Positions 7,912-55,952 of a DNA stretch of 64,000 bases are shown one piece after another. The translations under genes were made by a program, and so were the position numbers. The notes beneath the pieces were generated by a model. The model did no database searches. It was not told where the DNA came from and was given only the letters and a program-made list of their open reading frames with translations. Each line of letters opens with the position of its first letter. Positions within the stretch are counted from its first letter, which is position 1. Source of the DNA: Dicyema japonicum (Eukaryota; Dicyemida; Rhombozoa; Dicyemidae); the NCBI GenBank assembly GCA_011109175.1, contig RDEW01000016.1, forward strand, positions 183,349-247,348. Reading direction: 5' to 3'.

Positions 7912-9996
7912 TCATTCATCAGATTCACTATTAAAGACATCAATACCAAGGAGGAGATTCCGATTCGTGAAATGAAGAGAATACAAAATTGAATCCTTAG
8001 TCAAATACTTCGACAGCATATACTCGCTTTCATTACAATCACTAAATTCATCATTTAAGCTACAAAGTTAAAAAGGGCGATTCATTCTCCATTCTGGCTA
8101 AATGCCGTAAAATTGAGCGAAAATCCCAGATAAAAATCTTGCTTTTGTAAGTTCCTAGAACAAAGTCCACCTTCAGACATACCACAAGCAAGAATCTCCC
8201 CTTCTCGTGAAAAAGTCATGGTGGTGATGTTTTCGTCATCACACAACAGCCGAACCGCCAACTCCCCGGTGGCCAAACTCCAAACCATTATGCAACCGTC
8301 GACTCCTCCGCTGAGCAAATATCGTCCATCATTCGAGAAAACCAAACAAGAGACAGTTTCCTTATGTCCAGTAAACAGGAAGACACAACGACCGTCATAA
8401 ATATCAAAGATGCGAGTCATTCCATCATGGGAACCTGTAGCAACGTAGTTTCCGTTAGGATGGTGAGCCAAACACTAGAGATTACGGATAAAGCGACGGT
8501 TAAGTCGGCCAAGTGGCCAGTGAACAATCTCAATGGAACAGGACTATCACAAGACCACAGCTTGGCTGTGCAATCCTTCCCTCCCGTCAGAAAATAATGT
8601 CCGTAAGGCCTAAAGTCATGGAAAATGCGGAAACCCGAATTTAACATCCCAAATCGGTCCCCCAAAGTCTTTGAAGACAGCCAAAGTGCTGTACGTCATC
8701 AAACTCCACAACCGAACTAAACTTGACCACAAATTGCCAAACTGGTAGAGTCCTGAGAACATGAGACGATTTTGTCCCCGATTGGGTTAAACGAACTGCC
8801 ATAAACGGGGCCTGAGTGTCCGTAAAGAATCCTCAGATTCGACGCAGTATTCCTTTCGTCACAGAGGAGTTCTGAAATGTCACCAACTGAGGAGTCAAAT
8901 ATCATAAAACCGTTATCAAAATCAATCTGCTCCAGGTCATGCATGGACTTGATTCTCAGCAGAGAAGACGACGTCAGACCATAAATGGCGAGTCGATTGT
9001 CCGCGAAAGTCGCTGACATGAGGGCAGAGTCTTCACTGATACTGGTCGAGGTCACGTTATATTTGAAATTGAGGAGAGAGTATATATAAATCGAAGGGGG
9101 AGTGTCTGAGCTGATTACAAGGCGTTTTTTGCTCGGTTTTCGCATATTCAGCCGATTCACCATTTTTTGAGGCAAAGGGACACGTGACAGATTCGGGGAC
9201 TGGAAGAAATCCTGAGTATTCTTAGAGCGGGCAGCCACCTTTTTTCGGTCGTCGTCAACAGCGGAGTCAGTCAATAAGCCGAAAAAAAGTCTTTGAGGAA
9301 AGTTGACTGGGATGACGTAAAAATCAACCCTGATTGGAAAACTGACCGATAAAATGATTGGTGAGGGAAGGATAAGAGTGGAGAGTGAAGAAAAGCTGAA
9401 TCAGAGTCTTGAGGTTTGGGTTAAGGGAAAGGAACCGTTTGAAGATCTGAAGAACTGGACTTGACAGGGAAACATTGAATTTTACGCGTCTACGGTAAAT
9501 TCGCGGAAAACCTGAAAATTCTGACGATTTTATTTTCCGTAAAATTGTACGGCTCCACGTCTACCAACTCCCCTATGATTTGGGAGTATAGGGAGTTGTC
9601 ACGGAAAATGTTTGCGTTTTTTCCGTAAAAGGAATGAGCCCCTGAAGATAAAATTCCATAAAAATACCGGAAATGTCATTTTCGGCGACAAAAAGCAAAT
9701 AAACGTGCACAAAAATCGGAAATAGACAATTGAATAACTCAGCCTGAAATATCACATTTTTACTACTTTTGTATCTCGAGGGAAGATTCGTAGAGTTGAA
9801 TCAGGTTGGAACATTCAGCCGCAGATTGGGAGGCTGAGATGGACGTGTTGTACTCTGATGGCGTCATGAATTCATTTTGAAGAGCATTTGCAGCCTCCTA
9901 GTTGATAAAAGATGTTATTTTTACATGGAAGTTATTTTGTAAGAGATATTCAACTACAGAAGATATTTGGAATGAAGAAGGCTTAGTACTTGACAT
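7912..9996 (-). CDS. TAF5: TFIID subunit 5 (TAF5), split by microintrons
   Basis: TAF5 is the WD40 scaffold of transcription factor TFIID in the nucleus. After removing introns, the frame from ATG at 9996 gives, in order: a LisH motif (VVEYLLQNNF|HEAANALQNEF), the NTD2 domain (AELFNCLFPIFVHVYL; then VKFNVSLSSPVLQIFKRFL), the linker FPQRLFFGLL, PSIYIYSLLNF, and a WD40 propeller (RILYGHSGPVYGSSF, RLFTGHLADLT, HHPNGNYVATGSHD, GRCVFLFTGHKETVSCLVFS, then KIFIWDF). The end LTKDSILYSLHFTNRNLLLG matches the family C-terminus. Stop TGA at 7914-7912. Placed introns: 9924-9898, 9511-9490, 9328-9307, 8742-8717, 8634-8610, 8497-8475, 8182-8155, 8063-8042 (22-28 nt). Joins near 9760-9740 and 9645-9560 do not resolve cleanly. 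Protein about 620 residues against about 700-800 usually. ATG follows TTGATTAG-A directly. Confidence 0.93.
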
Positions 9997-10120
9997 TCTA
10001 ATCAATTTAAGTATTAATAATATTATGAAAACTGAAATATCAGCAAGAACAACAACGAATTTTAAATATTTAAAATTTTTATTTATTACTTTTAAAATTG
10101 TCAATTATTATTTGAACTAA

Positions 10121-10474
10121 TATAATAAAATAATATTATTATTTTGTAACAGTATAGCATATATCTGTTAAAATTGGAAATAATTCATACAGATGGGCGC
10201 CTCTTGTCAATCAGCATTTTCCACAGAAAAATTACATTTCTTGCAGACTCAGAGAATCATTACTTATTAAAATAACACATTTATGTCCTGAGTAACAATA
10301 TAAGGCTTCATACTGTGGATACTTTTCCTTTTAAAAGCTAACGTAAAGACGTTAAATATTCACTTATCCCCCAAAATTATAAGACGGAGACTCATCTCAT
10401 TCTATGTATCAAGTTATCGTTTTATTTGATCTAAAAGTAGCTCTATTTGTAGTTCATTAAAAAATTACAATTTT
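10121..10474. other. AT-rich intergenic stretch
   Basis: No frame, repeat or RNA signal seen between the TAF5 5' flank and the SINE. Confidence 0.5.
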
Positions 10475-10775
10475 ACGCACAGCCATATTAGCTATAACTC
10501 CTCCCATGCAGGACACTCACTTTATTTAAGTAAAGAACAGTTATGATAACTATTTGTAGGGGAGAATCAAGAAATGTTGTTCATTTCTTTTTTTTGTTGG
10601 GTGTGAGTCCTCTATAGACGATCCGGTTCCGCAGTAAAATATTCACTGATGACGGCCTCACTCGTCAAGCCAAAGCATCGTATATGGGTGGAACTTTCAA
10701 CCGGTATGTACAACAACGAGATGAGAACTAGGGACCATCAGGCCTCTTACCCGTCACTCTTTACACTAGTCAATT
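10475..10775 (-). repeat. tRNA-derived SINE, old copy
   Basis: Read on the minus strand: a decayed tRNA-like head (B box region AGTTCTCATCTCG near 10725), then the family body (GGAACCGGATCGTCTATAGAGGACTCACACCC, in two blocks around 10640 and 10610) and the 3' tail GTCCTGCATGGGAGGAGTTA followed by TAGCTAATATGGCTGTGCGTAAA. The same order is seen at 33.2, 45.6 and 58.4 kb. Confidence 0.7.
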
Positions 10776-10914
10776 TAGTCAATAATATCAATTCAACTGT
10801 GGGACAGTATTTATATTCTTCAATTGTTGCCAAATGAGATGTCTGTAAAATTTGTCTGAAAAATTGCTAAACTCCTGTTACATGGAGTTACTCAGGAAAA
10901 AAGAAAATACAAAA

Positions 10915-11470
10915 AAGACCTCGTTTTGGAACACTTACAATTATTTTAATTTAAAATTAAATTTTACAATTTCTATATTTTACTACAATTAATTTTTAAA
11001 TCACGTGCAGATTTTTGTTCATTTTTGGTTGTCTTGAAATTATCTACACCTTTTATGCGCTTAAACTACGATACAAAAGTTGAAATTGCTAAACTTCTTT
11101 CAAAAAAGGAGCATTCAATTCGAAAACTCGCGAGAATGTTTGACACAAGTGTCGGAACAATCTCTAGAATCAAGAGAAACATTGTTCCATTCACAAAAAA
11201 TGGACAGATTTATTCAAATGCAGAGACTTCAGAGTCAATCACTAGTGAAAAGCATAAATTTTTGGATTCAAAAATGTTGGATGTATTTCAACACTAAGAA
11301 AACAAAACGTTCCCATTTCCGGACCTTTAATCCAAAAAATCGGTATTATTGTAATTCTTAAAATCGTTTTATTAGGACTGAAAGTCGCATCTAGAATCTT
11401 TCTCCAAAATTTTAAAGCTTCAAACGGATGGTTAAAAAAATTTAAATCTGGGACGCTACTTGTGTCGACA
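10915..11470 (+). mobile_element. Tigger/pogo-like element, DNA-binding half
   Basis: The leader at 10917-11030 is almost identical to the minus strand at 42490-42370 inside the Tigger copy at 38-42 kb. It is followed by an open frame with a psq-type helix-turn-helix (MRLNYDTKVEIAKLLSKKEH, IRKLARMFDTSVGTISRIKR) and then, after frame changes, a CENPB-type block (FPGPLIQK, NFKASNGWLKKFKSGT). The DDE catalytic half is missing here, while the 38-42 kb copy lacks this half, so the two fragments complement each other as relics of one family. Confidence 0.75.
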
Positions 11471-11757
11471 CGCTTTGCCCGTCCAACATTGTCGGGAGCG
11501 CGGTAGACACACTGTATTCCGCGGAAAAAACGATGAGGGCAAAGGAGAAGAAATACGAAGCGCTACGCGACCGATTCGCGTTTTATCCGATAGTGGTCGA
11601 GACAACTGGAGGAATAAGTGGAAAATCGCTTCGCTTCCTCAAGAAACTTGGACGCTTAGCTACACTAAAAAGCCACGACGCACGTGAGACCCGGTGGCTA
11701 CTCCAGTTGATCTCTGTTGCAATCTTGAAATACTGTAAATATGGTTTTCTGATTTGA
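11460..11757 (+). mobile_element. REL-type LINE, C-terminal fragment
   Basis: CVDTLCPSNIVGSAVDTLYS, then KKYEALRDRFAFYPIVVETT and a GKSLRFLKKLG stretch, ending in RWLLQLISVAILKY. This is the conserved C-terminal end (VDT...KY..L...F.FYP.AVET.G...FL..LG...ISVAI) of a LINE family whose preceding block carries RPDG...WD. It occurs more than a dozen times in this window. No upstream part is present here. Confidence 0.7.
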
Positions 11758-12064
11758 AAGTAAAATGATTTTTAAATGTTAGACTAAAAATCTAGTCACG
11801 TGATCCACGACACCTGGTCACCCTTGAAAGCCAATTTTAAACTACGACTGTTCAATAAAATAACGCTTTTATGTTTACAGGTTCCAATATGAATACATCA
11901 TTCCGTCCATTTACTCAGAAGGCGAGAGATCTCGTATTTCTCCAAGTAAGGATACATAAACCCAATGAACCATTTGGGTAATCAGACTTCCTAATCTGAC
12001 CTCTTGTTCGTCAGTCCATAAAAGAACAACTCAATCAAAAAATAACAAGAATATCATGAAACAG

Positions 12065-12689
12065 TTAGAATTTCATGGCATGTGGTCGATCCCCACGTTG
12101 AAGGAAAAACTCAGTTCGCAGATATCCCTTAAGAGTCTTTGCATCCTCCCTTTTCTTGATGGCTTCCAACACCTGACCATCAATCAGCTTCTGCACCTTC
12201 ATCCATTTGTCTTTCCACACCTCCTTGGCTTCTTCATTCAGCTACACATTACCACCACAGCCTACTCGCTTTCCAGCATGCAGAAAATTGTCAGTGACGG
12301 TCTCGGGGAGTTTGAAGTTACCCAGATCGACTTTTGTAGAAGTGGCGATCACATGAGAGGCACACATCGTCTTAGTGGGACTCCGTTGGTCTTGTAGGGA
12401 CCGTTAACACAAAGAAATCCGGATGGAAGCTGTCCCAAGAATACAGAGCGCTATTTGTAAAAGAAAAACACCACTTTGCCACGATGAGTGCCAGTCAATT
12501 GAATGACAACAGTGCCAGGAGTTAATGAACTTCTGAGTTTGTGTTTATGTTGTGAGTAGCATTTTTTGTTGGTCTTTTTTGGAGTTTTAGCAACGTTAGG
12601 GTTGATCTTTTTCCTCTATTATATATTTAAGTTTTAAATACCATTGTAAGCTTCTTTTTGTCTTTATTCTCATTCGCAACAACCTCCAT
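12065..12689 (-). CDS. RPL6: 60S ribosomal protein L6 (eL6), microintrons, one frame break
   Basis: A structural protein of the cytosolic 60S subunit. ATG at 12689 opens [16 protein letters not shown]. Intron 12641-12616 (26 nt) leads to [10 protein letters not shown] and the KOW-like core [17 protein letters not shown]. Intron 12474-12451 (24 nt) leads to [25 protein letters not shown], then [19 protein letters not shown]. Intron 12265-12242 (24 nt) leads to the tail [22 protein letters not shown] and TAA. These match eL6 (TGRHRGKRVVFL, VPLRR...VIATSTK.D, GYLRS.F...G..PH). One base appears missing near 12363 (TGTGTG), breaking the frame between RRC and ASHVIATS. About 185 residues, with a short N-terminus against vertebrate eL6. 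Confidence 0.94.
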
Positions 12690-12699
12690 TAAACACTAC

Positions 12700-14000
12700 A
12701 ACAGTAATCGTGAGTAACACGTGAAATTAAATTCAAAATTTTATTAATTTTATTTATTAATAATTTTTTAATTAATTCCAATATAACGTAAGTCTTTGAT
12801 TCTTGCAAGCAGCAAACGGATGCTTATATTTAAAAAAATCATATTATAGCTGATGATTCTTTAAATCGTTGTTAACCTGCGCACGTTTAACGATCATGAC
12901 AATCAAATTAAATTACGATCAAGTTTTAAAACATAAAATAAATTTAATTTAAAATGAATTGTTTGAAATAAGTGAGCTTTTAATTAAAACGACAAGGAAC
13001 AATTCTCAATCATTCCACTGCCTACCTTCAGAAATTCAAACAAGCGGGAAAACAGATTCAACCTAAATCTGGACGAATCGAAAATATTAGAGATATTTAT
13101 AGAACTTCATCTTACAATTCTTATTGTTAGTTGGGAAATAGGATGCAAATACGATTTGAAAAAATATCTTCAAAGACATTTACAAAGAACTGTCGACTAT
13201 TTAGCAATCGACTGTCTAACACTTATTAATATGGCGATTTTTTGACTTTATAAATCCGAAATTTTGACCATTTTTACTCATGAAAATTTTATCTAGAAAA
13301 TTTTTTTTAATTTAACAACACCAAATCAATAACTTAATTAAAATAAAGAATAATGTAATTCAAAATTTCGGTCTTAGATAATAGTCGTGGTAAAAATAAA
13401 AATCTTCATCTTTTGCTTAAATTCCATTTTTATTAAAACTCTTGGTTATTTTTTACTTCACAACCATCCAGAGGAGTTCCCCCCTGGACGGCACCTCCTT
13501 TAAGTCCGAGCATGCGAAGACTTATAAGGAATGGGATCACCTGAATTTTTTCATCTGGCTATGTCGGTGTTTTTTAGTTCAATAAATCTAAATTTAAAAA
13601 ATTTAAACACTGAATTAATAAATTATTAATTGATCAAAGTCAAGAACATTTTCAATGCCTTGATTAGTTAGCATGACTGTTCTTAATTCTCAAATAAGGT
13701 GTGAGTTCTACCTGAGGTTTAGCAAATGGAAACATTACCACTCCTTGGCGGCCGTACTGTTGTAGTTGATCGAGCACTTTAGATGTTCAGATTTGTTGAT
13801 TTATTAAATGAATTTCAGAATATGTTAAATATTATTTAATTACAAAGCCGATGAAGAAATTGCGGGAAAGTTGGATGACTGATCTGAAAAACACCAGAGA
13901 TCACGAGTCTACGAGATCGGATACCGATAGCCAATGTGCGTAGAAACAGCTTGGTTATTCAGACGACTACACTAATAAATACTTTTCTCCTACTGAACCT
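12700..14000. other. Intergenic, AT-rich, with one LINE 3' end
   Basis: No gene recognised. At 13495-13570 the string GTCCGAGCATGCGAAGACTTATAAGG...GGGATCACCTGAATTTTTTC, followed by GGTTCAATAAATCTAAAT-like sequence, matches 32920-33010 (+) and the minus strand at 51730-51640. It marks the 3' end of a third LINE-like repeat. The rest (12730-13010, 13580-13660) is AT-rich and featureless. Confidence 0.5.
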
Positions 14001-14006
14001 AGAAAT

Positions 14007-14300
14007 TTATTTGTGCTTCACATCTATTTTGACTTTGTAGATAAAACAAAATTTTCCAACCCTATGATAAATCCATTTAAAAAACTCAAAAATAGCTTCG
14101 GTCAAATATTTTGGCATGAATTTTCTGCACTTTTCCACATAAGGAAGTAACACGATATCCAATACCCTCAAGGATTTTGTAAACTTTAGTGTTAGCTTAT
14201 GCAAAGTAATCATATTCAAGTAAGCATTAGTGACCTCAGTGATCCTAGAGTGGGTGGATGGAATGAGAAAATCAGATATTTTTACAGTGATACCTGTGAA
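14007..14300 (-). CDS. Unidentified open frame
   Basis: About 97 codons without a stop on the minus strand, with an internal ATG at 14219. Residues such as THKLTLKFTKSLRVLDIVLL-like (actual: HKLTLKFTKSLRVLDIVLLP) and FEFFKWIYHRVGKFCFIYKV are rich in aromatic and basic amino acids. No family recognised. It may be an exon of an unplaced gene or chance. Confidence 0.2.
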   Translation of the reverse strand, partial: FTGITVKISDFLIPSTHSRITEVTNAYLNMITLHKLTLKFTKSLRVLDIVLLPYVEKCRKFMPKYLTEAIFEFFKWIYHRVGKFCFIYKVKIDVKHK

Positions 14301-14399
14301 ATACTAATAAAATGATAAACCTGTTAGTTTGAAATGATTTTAATCGATTCAATAAAAAGCTGTTGTTAGAAAATTCGCCAGGATATTTTTAATAACCTT

Positions 14400-14705
14400 T
14401 TCAATCACCTTCTTTCTTCGGACACGTGCTGAGGATGGAATTAACATCCCCACCGAACATATCTATGGAAACATACTATGTCAGTCAAGAAAGCTGCTAT
14501 CGTGGAAGACCTAGAACAACACTGCCAATAGGTTTACAAAAAGACCTGGTTAATTTTAAAAAAAATTTAAAACTGCCGACAACCTTGACACTATGAGAGC
14601 CTTTGCTAGGAACAGGGGAGCATGTAAAGGATGACATTTAACATTGTTTCTTTAGCTTCACATGCGGGGCTAAGTAGTATGGTTCTCGTGAAGTGTTTAA
14701 ATAAT
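14400..14705 (+). mobile_element. APE-type LINE, 3' end fragment
   Basis: FFGHVLRMELTSPPNIS, then CYRGRPRTTLPIGLQKDLVN, matching FGHILRMN...FPGRP of the complete LINE. It ends in the family tail CACATGCGGGGCTAAGTAGT, ATGGTTCTCGTGAAGTG and TTTAAATAATAA. Confidence 0.7.
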
Positions 14706-14749
14706 AATCACCTTCTTGATTGAACGAGGCATAACAGTTGTTAACACGT

Positions 14750-14900
14750 TAGTATTTTACTCAAAAACTCTACAAATTAAAAAATCAAAAAGCTGGGAGA
14801 TTCTCGGGAGCTGTGTTGGTTCAATGACCGCCTCGGAATTGCCATCGTTAGTGGCAATGGTAATTGTCTTTTGGCAGCTGGTGACTGATTTGCTTTTTTG
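14750..14900 (+). mobile_element. REL-type LINE, last codons
   Basis: WFNDRLGIAIVSGNGN (14815-14862) corresponds to the terminal FL.QRISLAI.RGNA block of the REL-type LINE family. Nothing upstream can be assigned. Confidence 0.4.
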
Positions 14901-15052
14901 TTAATAAATTAAATTACAGCAAACTAGTTGCCAAAATAAAAAAACCTTTTATCACCAAAAACATAAAAGTGAGATGATCTGTAAAAATTATGACATTTTT
15001 CAATGAAACGAGGAAATCAGTAATTTTCCCCAATGAAGCATGTTTTGAGGTG

Positions 15053-15340
15053 TTAAATATCAAAAGGAGACGAATTTTTTATCTCGAAAATGGTACTGGT
15101 TTTATCGACAGAATCTGGTGTCAATGCCAAGTACTGTGGGGGTAAATTTATTTCTTCTCCCTCACCAAATCCACTTGTGAAGATTACCTTAGGAAAATTT
15201 TCCCGCCTAAAAATGAAGTTATATCCGCGACAGTAGGACGTGTGATGATAATGGAAGAGGGCGGACCTACTTCTCCATCTCTCTTCTGAAGTGGAAGCCT
15301 TCAATGGACTATTTGGAGGATGTATTCGGTCGGCATACAG
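15053..15340 (+). repeat. Dispersed repeat shared with 63.46-63.72 kb
   Basis: Strings such as CCGCGACAGTAGGACGTG, GGGCGGACCTACTTCTCCA and GGATGTATTCGGTCGGCA recur in order at 63.6-63.74 kb with modest divergence. AATCTGGTGTCAATGCCAAG near 15108 also resembles the Tc1-like segment at 15499. It may be a Tc1-related non-autonomous repeat. Confidence 0.6.
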
Positions 15341-15489
15341 TCATTCTGCCTTAGAGCACCTCCATAGATTAAACAGGATGTTTGTCTCGAAAGGAGAAAA
15401 AAGTAAGTCCAATTTTAACGGTCCTCGGCATTCCATCTAAATCTATCGGAAGTCGAGGGTATATTGATTTATCCGATTGTACTTAGTTT

Positions 15490-15590
15490 GATCGACAGAA
15501 TCTGATGCCAACAATCAAGCACGGTGGAGGCAAACTTATGGTAAACGGATGTTTCTCGTGTGACGGAGGAGGAAGAAAATAGCAACCAAT
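15490..15590 (+). mobile_element. Tc1/mariner-like transposase fragment
   Basis: NLMPTIKHGGGKLMVNGCFS in one frame (15499-15558) resembles the P.VKHGGGSVMVWGCFS signature before the second catalytic Asp of Tc1 transposases. Only this short block is visible. Confidence 0.5.
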
Positions 15591-15811
15591 ATACTGAGTT
15601 CGATTTTCACAATCCTAAACACCGCCAGTCATCCAAGTAAAACACTAAACCCATAAAGAGCCGAACATATATTGATCCAAAGAAACCGCCATTTGTGAAA
15701 CCACCCCGCAGAATAATCTAACAACGTGCCAATGTCGTGGCAATGGTGATTGTGAAGTAGGAAGCTAGTTTTCAGCGACAACTCCAATAAAACCATTTTT
15801 TATTTTAATCA

Positions 15812-17736
15812 TCACACAGTGAAAACCAGGGCAGAATAAATAACCGTGAAATTAGCGGAGCAATACAGATAGAGTAATCTGGTCCACAAGTGGGGGTACC
15901 TCATTGGAGTTGGAAGTTGCAATAAATCACACAAAAGTAGTCCAACAGCAACCGGCATCTAGAAAATTAATATTTACGCTTACCGACGATTTGTACAGCG
16001 CATAGTGGCTAAACTGAAATTTTCCCTTCCCGACTCTTCGTTTTCGGCATCCTCGACCTTTGATCGTACAAAAAACGTGGAACAGCATTAAGCTGACAAT
16101 AAATTGAAGTGTTTGTCCATCTTTGCGTAAAAGTGGGAAAAGACTAGTAAAAAAACACAAAAACCTTATAGTAGAAAGTTCTAGAAACCACAAGACAAGC
16201 CAGTATGAGGAGGTCGACAAACTCAGAGCCCTAAAGTCACTGAAAAAATTACAAAGCTGGGTAAATTATGGATTTTTCATGCACGTGGAATGAAAAAAGA
16301 TAAAACGCAAGCGACGAAGCGGCCTATCGAATAATATTAAAGCTACCAAAGTCTCTGTAAAGGCGCGATTACTTTTAAAGCGGACCAAACACGGTAAAAC
16401 GGAAAAAACCAGAGTAAATCCGGTGCTAATAACGGTTAAACAGGGGAGAACCAAACACGCAAAATATGATCCCCCAGTAGTTTTTCCGGTTTAATCAAAA
16501 CAGATAACGAACACCAGAAGTTAGCCACTTTGTCCTAAATTATTAAAAATCTACGACTTCGTATAACCCCCTCCAAAAAGGAAAAACTCTTTTATAGATA
16601 TTCAAGAGACATTCCAATGAAGGATCCCCCAAAATGAAAGGAAACAATATCACTGAGACCACCAGTAAGCAGCAAATTCCAACCTTGATGATTCTCACAG
16701 TACTCAAGTAAGAAAAAGTTTAAAACCTGCGAAAGAACCCGCCTTCGACTGAAAGGGCGAGTACTCTAATGAACATAGCCACGGAGTAATAAAGCGAAGT
16801 CTGCTTGAAAAAGACCGCCAAAACGTAGAAAACAGAGCCCAAATAAATATTGCGTTTCTCAAGAAAGAAAATGCTCCAAACAAGGAATCCAAGGGCAACA
16901 CAGTTGTACTGGAAGTGGCCGTGGTCGATTAGCAAAAGTCCAGGGTACAGCAAAGGGAAGAGAACCGAAACCTACGTTAGAATATAAAATACATCATTTT
17001 TTAGTGAAAAATACAAAATTCCAGAGACAAGAACCAAAAAGTCTGCAAATATCACTATTGACTCAAAAGAGACGAATACCTGAGTACCTCATGAACATCT
17101 TGAGCTCAGAGCTTTCGAATCCCCTTGAGGAATGGAGAGCCGTCCAGTTTGGGTTATAACGATTAGCTCTGAAACTAAGTGAGTAAACAACATTTTCCCC
17201 ATCAAATAACTGTGATAGGCCGATAAAGGAGGGTAATCCGATTCCCCAGTAGCTCAAGTCATTATCAGTAGAGTTCACGTACCTTTGAATGATATATTTA
17301 AGGAATTTGAGCCATTTTAACTCTCAATATTAATTTTTTTAAAAATAAAAAAAATTTAAATGTAAACAATTTTAAATAAAAATTATTATTTTATAGAATA
17401 TTTTAAATAAAAAATGATATATACTGAGTGCCACATTTCTTATGTTTGGGAGAATTTTTGCAATAATACTGCTAATAATAAAATTAAAATAAAAAATAAC
17501 ATTTAAAATATTAAATAAAATTTGAAAAATAATAAGGGGCACACAAAAACCATTGAGAAATATTCAAATTGGTAGTAATCTCCATCCAATGCCTGTGAGC
17601 TTCAAAGTCTCCGTAATTCGGGGGAACAGAAAACCCTAGTTTTCAGAATTTATATTTTACCAGAATATCCTCCTGAACCGACGAGAAGTTTTAATAATAA
17701 AAGGGACAGCACTCCAACTAATAACGTTGATTTCAT
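15812..17736 (-). CDS. ALG6: ALG6 dolichyl-P-Glc:Man9GlcNAc2-PP-dolichol alpha-1,3-glucosyltransferase, microintrons
   Basis: A polytopic ER GT-C enzyme that adds the first glucose to the N-glycan precursor. ATG at 17736 opens a hydrophobic segment MKSTLLVGVLSLLLLKLLVG. Then comes NYGDFEAHRHWMEITTNLNI (first-loop catalytic DFEAHRHW), STDNDLSYWGIGLP, NPNWTALHSSRGFES, LYPGLLLIDHGHFQYNCVAL, KRVFPFWRGLYEDKVANFWC, FHVHEKSIIYPAL (the HVHEK motif) and a multi-membrane tail ending VIYSALVFTV. Placed introns: 17660-17636, 17544-17283 (262 nt), 17079-17055, 16992-16972, 16726-16703, 16557-16535, 16451-16426, 16346-16324, 16252-16231, 15983-15959. The 17210-17180 area is unresolved. About 480 residues, normal for ALG6. 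Divergent from MRPS33 over 81 bp. Confidence 0.95.
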
Positions 17737-17817
17737 TATAATTTAAAATAATTAATTAAATTTAATTTTTTTTAAATTCAAATTTATTTTATTTCTTGTG
17801 TGGTCTTCTTCCTTCAG
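17737..17817. promoter_or_regulatory. 81-bp shared intergenic of ALG6 and MRPS33
   Basis: The two start codons lie 81 bp apart, pointing away from each other, so promoters and 5' UTRs of both genes must fit here or overlap. The block is T/A-rich and ends GTCTTCTTCCTTCAG directly before the MRPS33 ATG, which looks like a 3' splice acceptor. Inferred from layout only. Confidence 0.5.
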
Positions 17818-18217
17818 ATGTCTACTCGTTATGCCAAAAAAATGAAAGCCCTGTCCGCCAAAATTTTTGGAGACTATCCAACGAATCCACGTGACCAAAA
17901 AATATTTAAGTTATTTTCGTCACTTCCGCCATATAAAGACGAGAAATATGTCAATTATTATCCCCCATACCGCACGTGGGACCATTTAATAAGGACACTA
18001 AGAAATTACGGGCTTTACAGGTAGAATTGTGTTTAATAATCTCAGAGATTCACATTTGGATTTCATGGAGATGATCAGCAAAATGAAGGAGACTTCTAAT
18101 AGAGTGAATGAATTTACTCAGGAGATGAATAAAAAACGGCAGGAGATTGCTAATAAAACGAGGACACAACGTAAATTGGAAAGTCAAGGCGTAAAGAAGA
18201 AATATCGTGTTTTTTAG
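17818..18217 (+). CDS. MRPS33: Mitochondrial small ribosomal subunit protein mS33
   Basis: Part of the mitoribosome small subunit. ATG at 17818: MSTRYAKKMKALSAKIFGDY, then KIFKLFSSLPPYKDEKYVNY, YPPYRTWDHLIRTLRNYGLY. After a 25-nt intron (18021-18045, GTAGAATTG...TCTCAG) comes RDSHLDFMEMISKMKETSN and a basic lysine/arginine-rich tail to TAG at 18215. This fits mS33 (Y...M..LSA..FG, KLFS..P, YP.....L...LR..GLYRDEH.DF). 124 residues against about 106 in human, with an extended basic C-terminus. The intron falls between GLYR and D. Presence of a mitoribosomal gene rules out organisms that lack a mitochondrial genome. Confidence 0.95.
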
Positions 18218-36600: not shown

Positions 36601-38271
36601 TCCGGGTTCATAACGGAAAGGTTTTAAACTCTTGTCTTCTATATAAAAAATAACATTTTTGTTCTAAGACGCTTTTCGTACTACAAAGATCCCTTTGTTT
36701 CCATGAGCCTGATTCTCTCAAATCTCCGGAGGACCTCATAAGACTGAAGAAATCCTCAATATCAGATTTGACATCACTGGCTGGTCTCAAGGAAAGCTCA
36801 TAATGTTTGGGGGAATTGGTTTGAGGTCTACTGCCGATTTGGCCATTCCAATTTACCTGTCGTCCTCGGAAGCTGACAGTCATGAGAGCTATCGAGGACG
36901 CCGAGTTTGCTCCCTACTGGAACCCATCGGTCTTGATAAAGGGAAGGTTAGAGGGCGGATAGCGTAACGATAGACCCACAGAGTCAAGGGAGCTGTCTTG
37001 CTTAGGATACAACATCTAATGGAAATTTGCTCATGTCATCGTTGCGCAGGTATTGCAGCGAGCACTGCTAAAGATTTGAAAAGGAGGAAGTACTATGGCA
37101 TCGTGCATCGGTTAGTTTTCCAACCTATTTCTTGAGACGTCTGACGTTATTGGGACAGTTTATCAGGTTATGTACCAAGAATTAACGCGATTATGATAGG
37201 TAACTCCCATTACGTGATCAATGACTTCAGATATAAAGGAGACATTTCATAACAGCACCATAATAATTGATTACTACTAGTAAACCTTTCAACACCAATA
37301 AATGCGCAAAAGCACACGGAAAAAATATGCCGTAGGACAGCCCGTATGGAACCGACCTTACTCGAAAGCGACCCGCAGTGCAATGGGCGGCAATCGAATA
37401 GGCCTACTGCCTGATTGATAACAGCAGACCACGACCAGGTAAGTAAATATTTTTGGAATGAACTTCCACGGCAAAATTAACTACATCGGTGAAATATTGT
37501 TCCCAAAATAATGCTTTTAAAATCAGGTTATCTTATCTATTTCAAGTTTTGTATTATTTAAATATATTTTTGTATTTCAGTATATTTTCCAAAGTTTTTA
37601 AATTTATTAAAATGAATTATATTTTGCTTTCTCATCTTAGTGCTTCTGATTATATTCATTTTTGAGTGGCTGAGATAAAAATGTTTTAAAAAAGATATGG
37701 ATAATCAATCCATTGCAAAATTTACGAGGACTTTAACAAAATATTCGTTAAAAAAACTTTAGAAAGTATAATTATCTACCACAAACAGATCAAGGTCTCC
37801 GATGAAGATTTCATATCTGCTTATAACTAACTTTCGCCAATTATAATGTGGCGGAAGAGAATTGGCTAGCTCAGTATGGAGAAAGGGGTGAGGATTAGTT
37901 GGTGGTACATTCCTTTGAAAAGAAGATCGCTTACCACTGATTGAGATTGTTCATTAATATAATGTTTTTATGGTGTTTTGGATTAATAAATGTTATCCTG
38001 GATCATCTGAAAAAAAACCTCAATAAGTTTGTTGGTCGTATGTTGAGACGATAAGTACCTCTATATCGCCAATAACTTAATCTCCTCAAGATAGATGTAA
38101 CCTTTAGTTATTCTTCTCATGTGGATTGATAAAATTATTTAGTCAAGAACATGGAACATATGAAATTTCTGTACAAGGAAGCGTCGGATAGGCATGAGCT
38201 CTAAATTTGAATCTCATCTGGCACAAAATTTGGAGCAACTTGGATATGTCTGCCTTAAGGAAGAACAAGGG
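36601..38271. other. 1.7 kb of unassigned, repeat-like DNA
   Basis: A 91-codon minus-strand frame at 36883-36608 (MTVSFRGRQVNWNGQIG...) has no match. At 37310-37380 a basic plus-strand stretch RKSTRKKYAVGQPVWNRPYS resembles the tail after an integrase core. At 37925-37995 TTGAGATTGTTCATTAATAT...GGATTAATAAATGTTATCC looks like another LINE 3' end. Confidence 0.35.
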
Positions 38272-38530: not shown

Positions 38531-41500
38531 CATTTTGGTGAGGTGGTGACGTGCCTCGTTTCTTCTCTGTACAACGGTTAAGAAAAATGTCTGAAAAACA
38601 CTCATCATACAATCGAGAACTCAGGCTAATGACGTTCAACGTACGTGGAATATCGAAAGATTGGACAAGGAAAGTACTTTGTGACGATCTCGAGAAATAC
38701 AAAATATCTATTGGCTGCCTACAAGAGACGAAAATCGAAAATGGACGCGATGAGACATGGAACAACTACCGACTGATTCTCTTCCCAACTGAATGCAAGC
38801 ACTACGGAATGGGATTTGCCCTACACGTGGATTACCTCAAAAAATTACATCGCTTTGGAGAGTCAACGACCGAATATGTGTCTTACAAGTCAAACTAAAT
38901 GAACTATGCCCGTCCAAGAGTCTACTAACCGTCATAAATGTCTATGCACCACACTGTGGACGAGTAATCAAGAACCCCAGTGAACTCGGGGAATTCTACT
39001 CAGAACTATCAAGCACATACTCTAACAATGCTTCCTCGTCTCTTGTCTTTGTTGCGGGAGATATGAATGCAAAGGCCGGAATGCGAATGGGGCCCGATGA
39101 ATCCTCTATTGGAAGACACGGGCGCGGAAGGAGAAATGCATCTGGAGCCTCTCTGGTAAACTTCTGCGAGGCAATAGCCTTTTCCTGTGCAACACGGCCT
39201 TTACGCACTCAGCTTGCCACAAGACGACGTGGCACGGACAAAGAAAAAACTCTGTCGGAGAGACCGTGAATATATATAATCAAATCGATTACATTATCTG
39301 CCGAAAGTCTGATAAACACCTGATAAATGATGCACGTTCCTACCAGGGAACAACAACCGACAGCGACCACAGGATCGTCATTGCAAAACTTTGTGTAAAA
39401 AAGCACCTGACTGGGAAAAAATACATTGAAAACGCGAAGAAGGCGAGACAAAGACCCAATATATACTTTCAGACAGAAAAATTGTGGTTAGAGCCAACTT
39501 GTAGAGCTAAATATCACGAACAAATCGAGACTCTTATGGTGAAAACCGCACCGGAATCATCAGTACGAACTCTGTGGGATCAAACAAAACAGGCAATCTC
39601 CAAGTCGGCCAAAATATGCCTTGGAGTCCGAAATCATCACGCCCTAAAATTGGATCACCACCCGAACGTGCCAAATATGGCAAAGCATTGCAGAGAGCTA
39701 CGACTAAAAGCGGCAAACACGTCAGACGAGAGTAAAAAAAAGAGCTTAATATCCAACAAAGGGAACTAAAGTGGAAAATCAAAAAGATGAACAGAAAACA
39801 TTCACGGGAAATTATTACATCCCTATTAAAAGATGTGGAATGCTAAAAGACAATTCAAGGATGTATGCGGCTTTGCGGCTGCTGCGGACAAAGAAAGGAC
39901 AAAACATCCTTCACATCAAAGACAAAGATGGAAAATTCGTGGGTAACCCGAAAGAAAAAGCAGAATTGATTGCACGACACTTCGAAACACTGTTGAATAA
40001 AGAAAATAATGACTTTCCCCCTTTCCAAGGAAAAGCAAAGGCGCTAAAAATCCCAATCACAGTGGAAGAGGTGGAATTAGCGATAAATAAACTGAAGAAC
40101 AACAAGAGTGCTGGGCCGGACAACATAAGCCCTGAGCTCCTAAAATATGGGCCAAAAAAACTTAGCGACACAATTGCAAAAACCCTAAATGCCGTCTTTG
40201 AAACTAATACCGATCTAGGACTTGGAAATGGATTATTAATACCCATACAAAAACCGAACAAATCAAAAGGACCAGTAGAAAATCTCCGCCCGATAATACT
40301 TCTGAATTCGATACGCAAGGTGCTGGCAAACATTGCACTAAGCCGGATAAAGGGTATGGCGAATCTATACCTACCAGCAAGTCAAAGTGGGTTCCGAGAA
40401 GGGAGGTCTACGGCAGACATTGTATGGAGCCACAGATGGCGCTGCGCAACGCACCAAAGATTCAAGAGCGCAACAACCGTGTTGGGAATAGATCTCTCCA
40501 GAGCTTTCGACTCAATAAACAGACAGAAACTGATGAATGTGCTTGAGCAAATATTGGATGAATCGTCGGTTAGGATAATCAGACTACTACTTGCGAACAC
40601 AAGACTATCTGTGAGGACAGAAGGAGCAACTTCCCGCAGTTTCAAAACAACGATTGGGACACCCCAGGGTGATTCCCTCTCCCCTTTACTATTCACCATA
40701 TACCTTGAATCTGCACTCCGCGACCTCCGTAAATGCTATATAGGAGACATAGAAGAGACATCTTATGCGGATGATGTGGATTTTGTATCACGGGATGTGA
40801 CCGCACTCCAACACCTGCTAGAAAATGCACCTGCGGAGCTTGAGAAATGGTTTCTCAGCGTAAATGTTAACAAAACTGAAATTACGGAAATCAAAAGAGA
40901 AGACGATATTACTCATGAAAGATGGAGACGTACTAATAAGCTCGGCTCTCTACTAGGAGACGCTGAAGATGTACTAGGAGGAAAACACTGGCAAATGCGG
41001 CAATGGCTAAACTGAAGAAAGGATGGCTAAGGGCCAAAGGACTTGGAATTGACATCAGATGCAGGCTTTACAACGCGTTTGTGAAACCGATCCTACTGTA
41101 TAACGCTGGGACATGGGGAAGTTCCTTCAACGAACTATTGAAACTGGATTCGTTCCATAGAAGGCAACTAAGAAGCTTACTCGGAATGGAGTGGCCACGT
41201 AGAATATCAACCACTGGTATCTACAACAAGTGTATGTGTTCTTACATCAGCAAGGATGTGATAGATGCCCGGTGGAGGCTATTTGGGCATATACTAAGAA
41301 TGAACCCGGACGCACCCGCTAACAAAGCGATGGAAGATTACTTTGACAGATGCGAAAAACCCTTCCCCGGACGACCTAATCGACACTTCCGACAGCCCTA
41401 AACAAAGACTTAAATCGTGTGAGAAAAAATTTAAAGACAGGAGACGACCTGGACGAATTGAGATCACTCGCATTCGACAGAGGAAGATGGAAAAGACTAA

Positions 41501-46215: not shown

Positions 46216-46287
46216 TGGAGATGCCAGGAATCGAACCCGGAACCTTCAGCATGCAAAGCAGACGTCATACCATTAGACCACATCCCC
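46216..46287 (-). tRNA. tRNA-Ala(TGC)
   Basis: 72 nt. Acceptor GGGGATG/CATCTCC pairs with one G-T; D arm GTCTAATGGTATGAC; anticodon loop TTTGCAT (anticodon TGC, Ala) on stem TCTGC/GCTGA with one T-T mismatch; variable AGGTT; T arm CCGGG-TTCGATT-CCTGG with one G-T; discriminator A. No encoded CCA. It is compact and lacks the SINE body seen next to the tRNA-like heads, so it is probably a real gene, though the stem mismatch leaves some doubt. Confidence 0.75.
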
Positions 46288-51952: not shown

Positions 51953-53271
51953 ATGAGCTTTAGAATAGAGTATTTCGTAAACTTGTATTTATTTTTTTTT
52001 CTTTTTTGCTGTGTCATCATGTTATTTCAACAAAATATTCCAAAATATTTAATCAAAATTAATGACCCAATAAAAATTTTGAAAATCTTAATTTAATTAT
52101 TCCAGTTATAATTTTCGCCCAGAGACGATTGCATATCAAATTCTATCAAAAATTAAAAAGTATTTCAAAATAATTAACTGGTAGATATAACCCTTCAAGA
52201 GAGAAATTTCCAATTATTGTTTCTGTTGACGGTCATAGTGACATTCTTGAAAAAGCCATCGAAGAAAATAGGAATGATTTTGATAAAATTTGGTGGGTAT
52301 TATTTTATAAAAAATTTTAATTCAGGATTTTGACTCCAAAACAACAGCTCCATATTCTCGTATATCTGAACACTATTATTGGGCCTTGAATAGGATATTT
52401 CTAGAATATGATATCGCTATTATTCTTGAGGGTTTACATATTAAATTATTTTTATTGATGATTTAATTATTTCATGTGACTTTTTCGATTATTTTAAACG
52501 CCTGGTTAAAATATTACTAAATGATTCGACGGTTTGGTGTATTTCTGCTTGGAACGACAATGGAAGTCCTAATCTCATAACAAAGAAGTCAGGTTTAAAT
52601 AATACTTTTTATGATAGATTTGCTAAGAAGAACCGATTTTATGCCGGGGTTAGGATGGATGCTGACAAAAAATGTCTGGCTCGAAATTAAGTTAAATTGG
52701 CCACAATCGTTACTATAATTTAAATTATATGCAGTTATTGGGACGATTATATGCGTACACCAAATATACGAAAAGGGAGACAGTGCATTTATCCAGATAT
52801 CTCACGTACCCGTCACATGAATATTGCTCGTACCAGCAAGTTTGTTTAGCATGATTTACTTAAGGGGAATTTTTGGATAAATATTCGAAAAATAGTCTGA
52901 ATGAAGTTTGTAGTATAAATTGGCAAGAAACCGATATCAGTTACCTTTACAACGTATTGTTTATTTTTATAAATAGGAGGAATATTCTAAAAATTTTGAT
53001 TCCCAAATGGAAGATGCAATTTTAGTTACTTTTGAGTTTGTCAAAAAAGTGGACATGTCTTATTTTAAAAAGATTAAAATCAAGTATTCAACAGAAACTT
53101 TTGTTTCAATTGCGGAATATTTTGGTCTATGAGCGACGAAAAAGTTTGTCTTTCATCACATCTTTAGTCTGGGATTTATCGGTGCTCATATCACGGAAGA
53201 ATTCTATTTTACTATCAAAATGTGTATGTTTATTTGATTCCCAGTTGATTCAACTTTTTGATTGTTCATAA
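51953..53271 (+). CDS. MGAT1: Alpha-1,3-mannosyl-glycoprotein GlcNAc-transferase I (MGAT1), microintrons
   Basis: A Golgi type II membrane enzyme that starts hybrid and complex N-glycans. ATG at 51953: MSFRIEYF, a membrane segment VNLYLFFFLFCCVIMLF, then a stem. Catalytic domain: IPVIIFA, EKFPIIVSVDGHSD, SRISEHYYWALNRIF, AIILE|DDLIIS (the EDD metal-binding motif across an intron), TVWCISAWNDNGSP, RRTDFMPGLGWML, WPQS|YWDDYMRTPNIRKGRQCIYP, DISRTRHMN, LDKYSKN, ETDISYLYN, MSDEK|SGIYRCSYHGRILFYY. Introns: 52297-52325, 52593-52617, 52709-52734, 52954-52976, 53144-53167, 53222-53244; the one at 52432-52457 ends in TTG and not AG. Single-base frame breaks near 52090 and 53128, and one unresolved junction at 52830-52870. 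Stop 53269-53271. About 370 residues (human 445). Confidence 0.92.
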
Positions 53272-55472: not shown

Positions 55473-55640
55473 TGTCTATCACTGCTTTATTTTACTATAA
55501 AAATAAATAAGCGTAATAACCGTCAATGTCTATCACTGCTTTATTTTACTATAAAAGAAATAAGCGTAATAACCGTCAATGTCTATCACTGCTTTATTTT
55601 ACTATAAAAAGAAATAAGCGTAATAACCGTCAATGTCTAT
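55451..55640 (+). repeat. Four tandem copies (53-54 bp) of a start-codon region
   Basis: Unit AAATAAGCGTAATAACCGTC, AATGTCTATCACTGCTTTAT, TTTACTATAAAA. ATGs at 55472, 55526, 55579 and 55633. Only the last copy continues into the secreted-protein gene; in the other three ATG TCT ATC ACT runs 12 codons or so and stops. So the 5' UTR and first codons of that gene have been duplicated in tandem. Confidence 0.85.
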
Positions 55641-55952
55641 TACTGTGTTATTCGGATTGATTTTCTATGGTACATTATAAGTTATCATTTAGCTTCTTGC
55701 ATTCAAGCAAGAATATTCGATGAGGAAATAAAAAGAAATAATAACACATCACCAAGAATAAATGGAAACCATACAGAGGATTTGAACAATTATACTCCGA
55801 GAGGTTATTATACACGTCGTAATAATACATCAGAGAGATTCAATGGAAACTATGAAGTTGATTTGAACAATTATACTACAAGAAATTATTATACACATCG
55901 TAATAATACATCAGAGAGATTCGATGGAAACAAGTCAATTGCTGTCGATTAA
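55633..55952 (+). CDS. Small secreted protein with Asn-rich 27-residue repeats
   Basis: Exon 1 (55633-55669) and exon 2 (55693-55952) flank a 23-nt intron (GTACATTATAAG...CATTTAG). The 98-residue product starts with a signal peptide (MSITVLFGLIFYASCIQA, likely cut after QA), then RIFDEEIK, then repeats: RNNNTSPRINGNHTEDLNNY-TPRGYYTR, RNNTSERFNGNYEVDLNNYT-TRNYYTH, and a partial RNNTSERFDGNKSIAVD. About ten N-x-S/T sequons suggest heavy N-glycosylation if secreted. No Cys after the signal peptide. No known family. The start lies in the fourth unit of the tandem array, and a 320-bp dispersed repeat begins 8 bp after the stop. Without the intron the frame ends after 15 codons, so the gene rests on the splice prediction. 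Confidence 0.7.

Follow-up and report, generated by a model that had tools for sequence, protein, structure and literature searches.

Spliceosomal introns of about 24 nt, with a likely branch site close to their 3' end, in a very probably dicyemid genome

Between positions 7912 and 18217 of a 64-kb stretch of genomic DNA (hereafter the window) on contig C62 of a 64.67 Mb assembly in 191 contigs, conserved genes are interrupted by GT...AG stretches of 21-28 nucleotides (nt), which raises the questions whether these microintrons are genuine, what a spliceosome could recognize in them, and in which organism they occur. Our reading, to which we assign a probability of roughly 0.85, is that they belong to the ordinary U2 type of spliceosomal introns, reduced in length to about 24 nt, and that the animal which carries them is very probably a dicyemid. 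A preliminary description of the window had placed 28 such introns, 21 of them in this range and the other 7 outside it (6 in MGAT1 and 1 in a gene at about 55.6 kb); our intron-by-intron placement covers positions 7912-18217.

Four conserved genes in this range rejoin once the short GT...AG stretches are removed, with 24 introns placed in total (TAF5 10, eL6 3, ALG6 10, MRPS33 1). These cover all 21 introns of the preliminary description and add three; its counts for eL6 and MRPS33 were reproduced, and those for TAF5 (8) and ALG6 (9) fell short. The TAF5 gene, with microintrons of 22-28 nt, lies on the reverse strand at 7912-9814 and was identified with the gene finder described below and by its match to TFIID subunit 5. 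Residues 16-547 of the 553 in its spliced product align to residues 41-605 of PDB entry 6f3t_A with 334 bits, so that the alignment encloses nine of the ten junctions, with the first at its edge. Introns 1 to 10 are located at 9744-9766 (23 nt), 9642-9667 (26 nt), 9490-9511 (22 nt), 9307-9328 (22 nt), 8887-8910 (24 nt), 8717-8742 (26 nt), 8610-8634 (25 nt), 8475-8497 (23 nt), 8155-8182 (28 nt) and 8042-8063 (22 nt), and the two beyond the earlier count are in the N-terminal part.

The ALG6 gene, also on the reverse strand (15812-17280, 5' limit approximate) and likewise found with the gene finder, yields a spliced product that matches the solved ALG6 chain 6snh_X with 193 bits. Its introns of 21-26 nt are at 17169-17191 (23 nt), 17055-17079 (25 nt), 16972-16992 (21 nt), 16703-16726 (24 nt), 16535-16557 (23 nt), 16426-16451 (26 nt), 16324-16346 (23 nt), 16231-16252 (22 nt), 16144-16164 (21 nt) and 15959-15983 (25 nt), the last of which is outside the aligned stretch and is given by the model alone. 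For eL6 (RPL6; reverse strand, 12065-12690, 5' limit approximate), with introns at 12616-12641 (26 nt), 12451-12471 (21 nt, alternatively 24 nt) and 12242-12265 (24 nt), the spliced product matches Pfam Ribosomal_L6e with 77.6 bits when one apparent 1-nt frame change is bridged. MRPS33 is on the forward strand (17818-18217), has a single intron of 25 nt at 18021-18045, and matches mS33 with 67 bits after splicing. At the level of the sequence, the 24 introns in the range are confirmed as GT...AG introns that restore conserved reading frames. The claim that the microintrons are genuine is borne out by the matches of spliced TAF5, ALG6, mS33 and eL6, and of MGAT1, to solved or curated families, and by a reversed control that returned nothing.

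To describe the introns as a set, a small self-trained gene finder was applied to the window and about 270 kb of the same genome (20 stretches of 9.9 kb around WD40 matches and 22 loci of small nuclear RNA (snRNA) genes), which together formed the training sequence over nine rounds. By construction it permits GT-AG introns only and excludes AT-AC introns. It returned 45 genes with 325 introns of at least 18 nt, of which 295 are 20-29 nt and 299 are 20-32 nt long. The 299 short introns (6.6 per gene model) cluster at 22-25 nt and have a median length of 24 nt, a GC content of 33% and a mean length of 23.9 nt (standard deviation 1.9), a value that omits 26 modelled introns of more than 40 nt. 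These longer introns are model errors in part, and some are apparently genuine, which suggests that there is no hard upper length limit. With reversed (uncomplemented) sequences the same gene finder produced 0 genes and 0 introns. A motif-free model, informed of nothing but the GT and AG ends and a flat prior on length (18-40 nt), returned 287 introns and retained the length peak at 22-25 nt.

Full-length conserved proteins were obtained from gene models that use standard stop codons; for one RBBP4 protein, residues 3-415 of 418 align to RBBP4 with 488 bits, spanning eight junctions, with the ninth at the edge. Seven other predicted proteins were checked against Pfam: four scored above the family cut-off, two had no match, and the Vps35 match reached 32.4 bits for a cut-off of 35. 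As three of the seven are without a match above the cut-off, part of the 299-intron set is based on coding signal alone. Apparent single-base frame changes were noticed in eL6 (about 12369), in ALG6 (about 17245) and at the MGAT1 acceptor (about 52458), as well as at the loci L028, L035 and L044, and the gene finder inserted pseudo-introns of 5 or 8 nt that keep the frame in conserved genes. The frame changes in conserved genes are probably small assembly indels.

Signals within the short introns are few. Beyond GT, the 5' splice site is very weak, with 0.32 bits over +3 to +6 relative to the intron background, and of the 7 positions compared with the U1 complement, donors match 2.53 and 3124 exonic GTs 1.59. 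The 3' ends read TAG in 168 and CAG in 77 of the 299 introns, and from +7 through -11 the introns consist of 42% T and 24% A. The clearest internal feature is an A at position -7 from the 3' end, present in 53% of the introns, with T at -6 and -5 in 55-56%. The same A was found in 48% of introns under the motif-free model and in 30 of 53 introns of genes identified by homology (TAF5, ALG6, MRPS33, two RBBP4 genes, a serine carboxypeptidase gene and a WD40 F-box-like gene, with junctions partly aligned). The motif YNAY centred on -7 is present in 29% of the introns (23% in the motif-free model) and is about three times commoner than in 300 shuffles (mean 9%, maximum 13%). When the A is allowed at -6 to -9, YNAY is found in 182 of the 299 introns, at a mean intron position of 16.8, compared with a shuffled mean of 34%. 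We consider it likely that this is a degenerate branch site that almost merges with the 3' splice site, its A lying some 7 nt before the intron ends.

Several points weigh against this picture of the introns and of their branch site. The introns are computational and were read from genomic sequence alone. Only 175 of the 299 are identical in the trained and the motif-free models, at least six are within open reading frames (ORFs) that resemble long interspersed nuclear elements (LINEs; window 38793-41401 and the loci L036, L045 and L050) and are probably false, and some junctions may be misplaced, given the small frame changes apparent in several genes. In 47% of the introns position -7 is not an A, and YNAY with its A at -6 to -9 was found in just the 182 introns, at a background of already 34% in shuffled ones. 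The A at -7 could reflect no more than the base composition of the 3' splice site, with branching at scattered As, a reading that we regard as unlikely. It gains from the weakness of the motif and the A/T-rich positions -8 and -9, and from an earlier examination of 41 Dicyema introns, which reports no branch signature (PMC2483917), a contrast to our set that may be due to sample size. It is opposed by the peak being confined to a single position and followed by a pyrimidine, and by its persistence through motif-free calling and shuffling; in Stentor, moreover, the branch A is likewise at a set place, position 10 of 15 (PMC9505925).

The predicted RNAs of the major spliceosome were searched throughout the genome with Rfam profiles. 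Of 25 U2 matches 22 exceed the cut-off (best 155 bits), as do 9 of 10 U6 matches (best 108 bits), and U2 GUAGUA and U6 ACAGAGA are intact in the aligned copies. The 11 U1 matches are all below the cut-off of 69.5 bits, the best reaching 69.0; the 5' end ACUUACCUG is kept in seven of the eight copies read, among them intact in the copy in the window at 37301-37446 on the reverse strand (61.1 bits, below the cut-off). The copies read show that the predicted U1, U2 and U6 RNA genes retain standard recognition sequences. In the eight U1 copies, the loops vary between copies and, by eye, an upstream element is common to several.

Splicing of the microintrons would then proceed by intron definition, with every intron recognized as a single short unit. 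U1 and U6 would read scarcely more than GU and its neighbours, and U2 would pair with the degenerate branch site, whose A would be around intron position 17, some 7 nt short of the 3' end. With the A so placed, a pyrimidine tract would not fit downstream of it, and a U-rich stretch upstream of the branch may take over that role. The minimum intron size would be set by the distance that the spliceosome requires between the 5' splice site and the branch A. The closest parallel is the ciliate Stentor coeruleus, where the branch A is also fixed near the 3' end of AT-rich introns with a weak branch consensus and where the U2 and U6 recognition sites are standard; its introns differ in being 15-16 nt long with the A at position 10 or 11, compared with about 24 nt and an A near 17 here, and in belonging to a ciliate, whereas the present genome is very probably that of an animal (PMC9505925). 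A Cir_N profile (the N-terminal plug of Cwc25, for which a change was proposed for Stentor) gave no match here, and the control was silent too. Giardia, Spironucleus and Trichomonas share a short, near-constant distance from the branch A to the 3' splice site, but have a clear consensus and few introns (PMC6679479), in contrast to the degenerate motif and dense introns here.

A further property had been suggested by the preliminary description, in which only 6 of 28 intron lengths divide by three. A bias against such lengths was rejected: they make up 106 of the 299 introns in the trained set, 20 of the 53 in genes identified by homology, and seven of nine in one RBBP4 gene. The same counts speak against a selection linked to translation through nonsense-mediated decay, acting against intron lengths divisible by three, which we hold to be improbable. 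Two figures point towards such selection, namely in-frame stops in 68% of the divisible introns of the trained set, against 56% when shuffled, and the low share of divisible lengths (44 of 175) among introns common to the trained and motif-free models. The gene finder, however, misses divisible introns that are free of stops, a loss that is worst without splice motifs and that alone could yield both signs, so that nothing is concluded from either figure.

The introns also bear on the source of the DNA, which the preliminary description had taken to be a dicyemid. Its being an animal is upheld by the relatives of TAF5 and by a Zic domain, and a dicyemid fits far better than the other sources considered. 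Among the 120 TAF5 hits listed, out of 327, the top named ones are animals with identities of 33-35%; a single yeast occurs, about 32 hits are nameless and none is a named ciliate. A Zic-type zinc finger (zf_ZIC) was matched at one place only, G000:C53:1148676-1148804 on the forward strand; two Zic genes have been described in Dicyema acuticephalum (PMC2222250). Introns are mostly shorter than 30 nt and their number per gene is in keeping with the 5-6 or so expected of a dicyemid, and their lengths agree with those published for this group (Dicyema acuticephalum, D. japonicum and Dicyema sp.). A mean of 26.2 nt has been given for 16 introns (PMC2222250), and a median of 27 nt elsewhere (PMC6543705); the mean of 23.9 nt here is slightly lower, with introns above 40 nt omitted. 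For the D. japonicum genome (65 Mb estimated, 67.5 Mb assembled), annotated with a trained AUGUSTUS, 6.2 introns per gene with a mean of 38.2 nt were reported (PMC6736024), compared with the 6.6 short introns that each gene model has here. The 5' splice site was weak in the earlier dicyemid introns, as it is in ours; the two sets differ in the branch-like A at -7 found here (PMC2483917). The source is thus very probably a dicyemid, an identity that draws on intron statistics and animal-type genes.

Another reduced animal, such as an orthonectid, is a very improbable source. Orthonectids have short introns too; the median intron of Intoshia linei, however, is 57 bp, with most introns above 30 bp (PMC6543705), against 295 of 325 at 20-29 nt in our set. 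A ciliate or another tiny-intron protist can practically be dismissed: tiny introns occur in Paramecium (20-35 nt) and in Stentor (15-16 nt; PMC2222250, PMC9505925), but the readable names among those 120 of 327 TAF5 hits are animals bar the one yeast, the genome has a Zic-type zinc finger, conserved proteins are full-length under standard stop codons, and it holds candidate minor-spliceosome RNAs, whereas the Alveolata are named for depletion of minor introns (PMC10639083).

These candidates point to a second splicing system beside the U2-type introns. U12 scores 85.4 bits (Rfam cut-off 53), and a reading of its letters found the branch-recognition region intact, while U11 (67.6 bits, cut-off 39) and U6atac (37 bits, cut-off 33) were identified by profile score alone. 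With all three above their cut-offs, as in a minor (U12-type) spliceosome, this machinery is probably retained. The resemblance stops at U4atac, for which the genome search gave no match, as did control genomes, and at the introns themselves: a genome pattern for U12-type introns (TATCCTT and TCCTTRA motifs) produced 40 matches against 47 in a backward control and hence no enrichment, and none of the 325 gene-model introns starts with GTATCC. The best-looking candidate, of 35 nt, is present twice on C62 in an ambiguous coding context; it may be an intron close to where an ORF ends, or accidental, and on a rough reckoning chance would yield about five such matches. It is possible, if somewhat doubtful, that both spliceosomes are active, the major one on introns whose branch site, with its A at -7, is all but fused to the 3' splice site, and the minor one (U11, U12, U6atac) on the shortest U12-type introns recorded. 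A pan-eukaryotic survey of 2023, which required two or more minor snRNAs, along with other criteria, for minor introns to count as present, left out introns below 30 nt, its shortest species average being just under 42 bp, and its main text has no occurrence of 'Dicyem' or 'mesozoa' (PMC10639083).

Dicyemid introns of microintron size are already published (2007-2019). Two computational findings may be new, namely the positional signal of a branch site and the probable retention of minor-spliceosome RNAs: no report of either in dicyemids was found in one open library, and Ogino et al. (2010; Gene 449:70) may discuss branch sites. Dicyemids, minute parasites of octopuses and squids, represent an animal extreme of intron shrinkage. 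If a branch site 7 nt from the 3' end does work with standard U1, U2 and U6, it would permit a bench test of the smallest intron that an animal can splice; if U11, U12 and U6atac are indeed retained, the minor spliceosome would have outlived intron shrinkage in a group that is invisible to surveys with a 30-nt floor.

Outside the range placed intron by intron, central exons of MGAT1 (GnT-I) with microintrons lie at about 52407-52816 on the forward strand (limits approximate) and match GnT-I at the gene level with 125 bits. The ORF at 55608-55952, which corresponds to the gene at about 55.6 kb, matched no Pfam family. A transfer RNA gene is located at 46216-46287 on the reverse strand. The LINE-like ORF at 38793-41401 (forward strand) has, by eye, what we take to be endonuclease- and reverse-transcriptase-like motifs; its first 158 residues gave no Pfam match, and similar-looking ORF pieces occur in L036 and, near U6 genes, in L045 and L050.

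In pairs of paralogs, intron positions are the same or nearly so, phase is kept, and lengths mostly differ by at most 3 nt. Two RBBP4-like genes (L033 and L041), 54% identical, have six microintrons within three alignment columns of each other and in equal phase, four of them in the identical column, with intron sequences that look unalike. One intron of the RBBP4 paralogs differs in length between them, at 21 and 97 nt, with position and phase unchanged. At L032, two paralogs that are 80% identical both contain an AT-rich intron of 51 nt, about twice the usual size.

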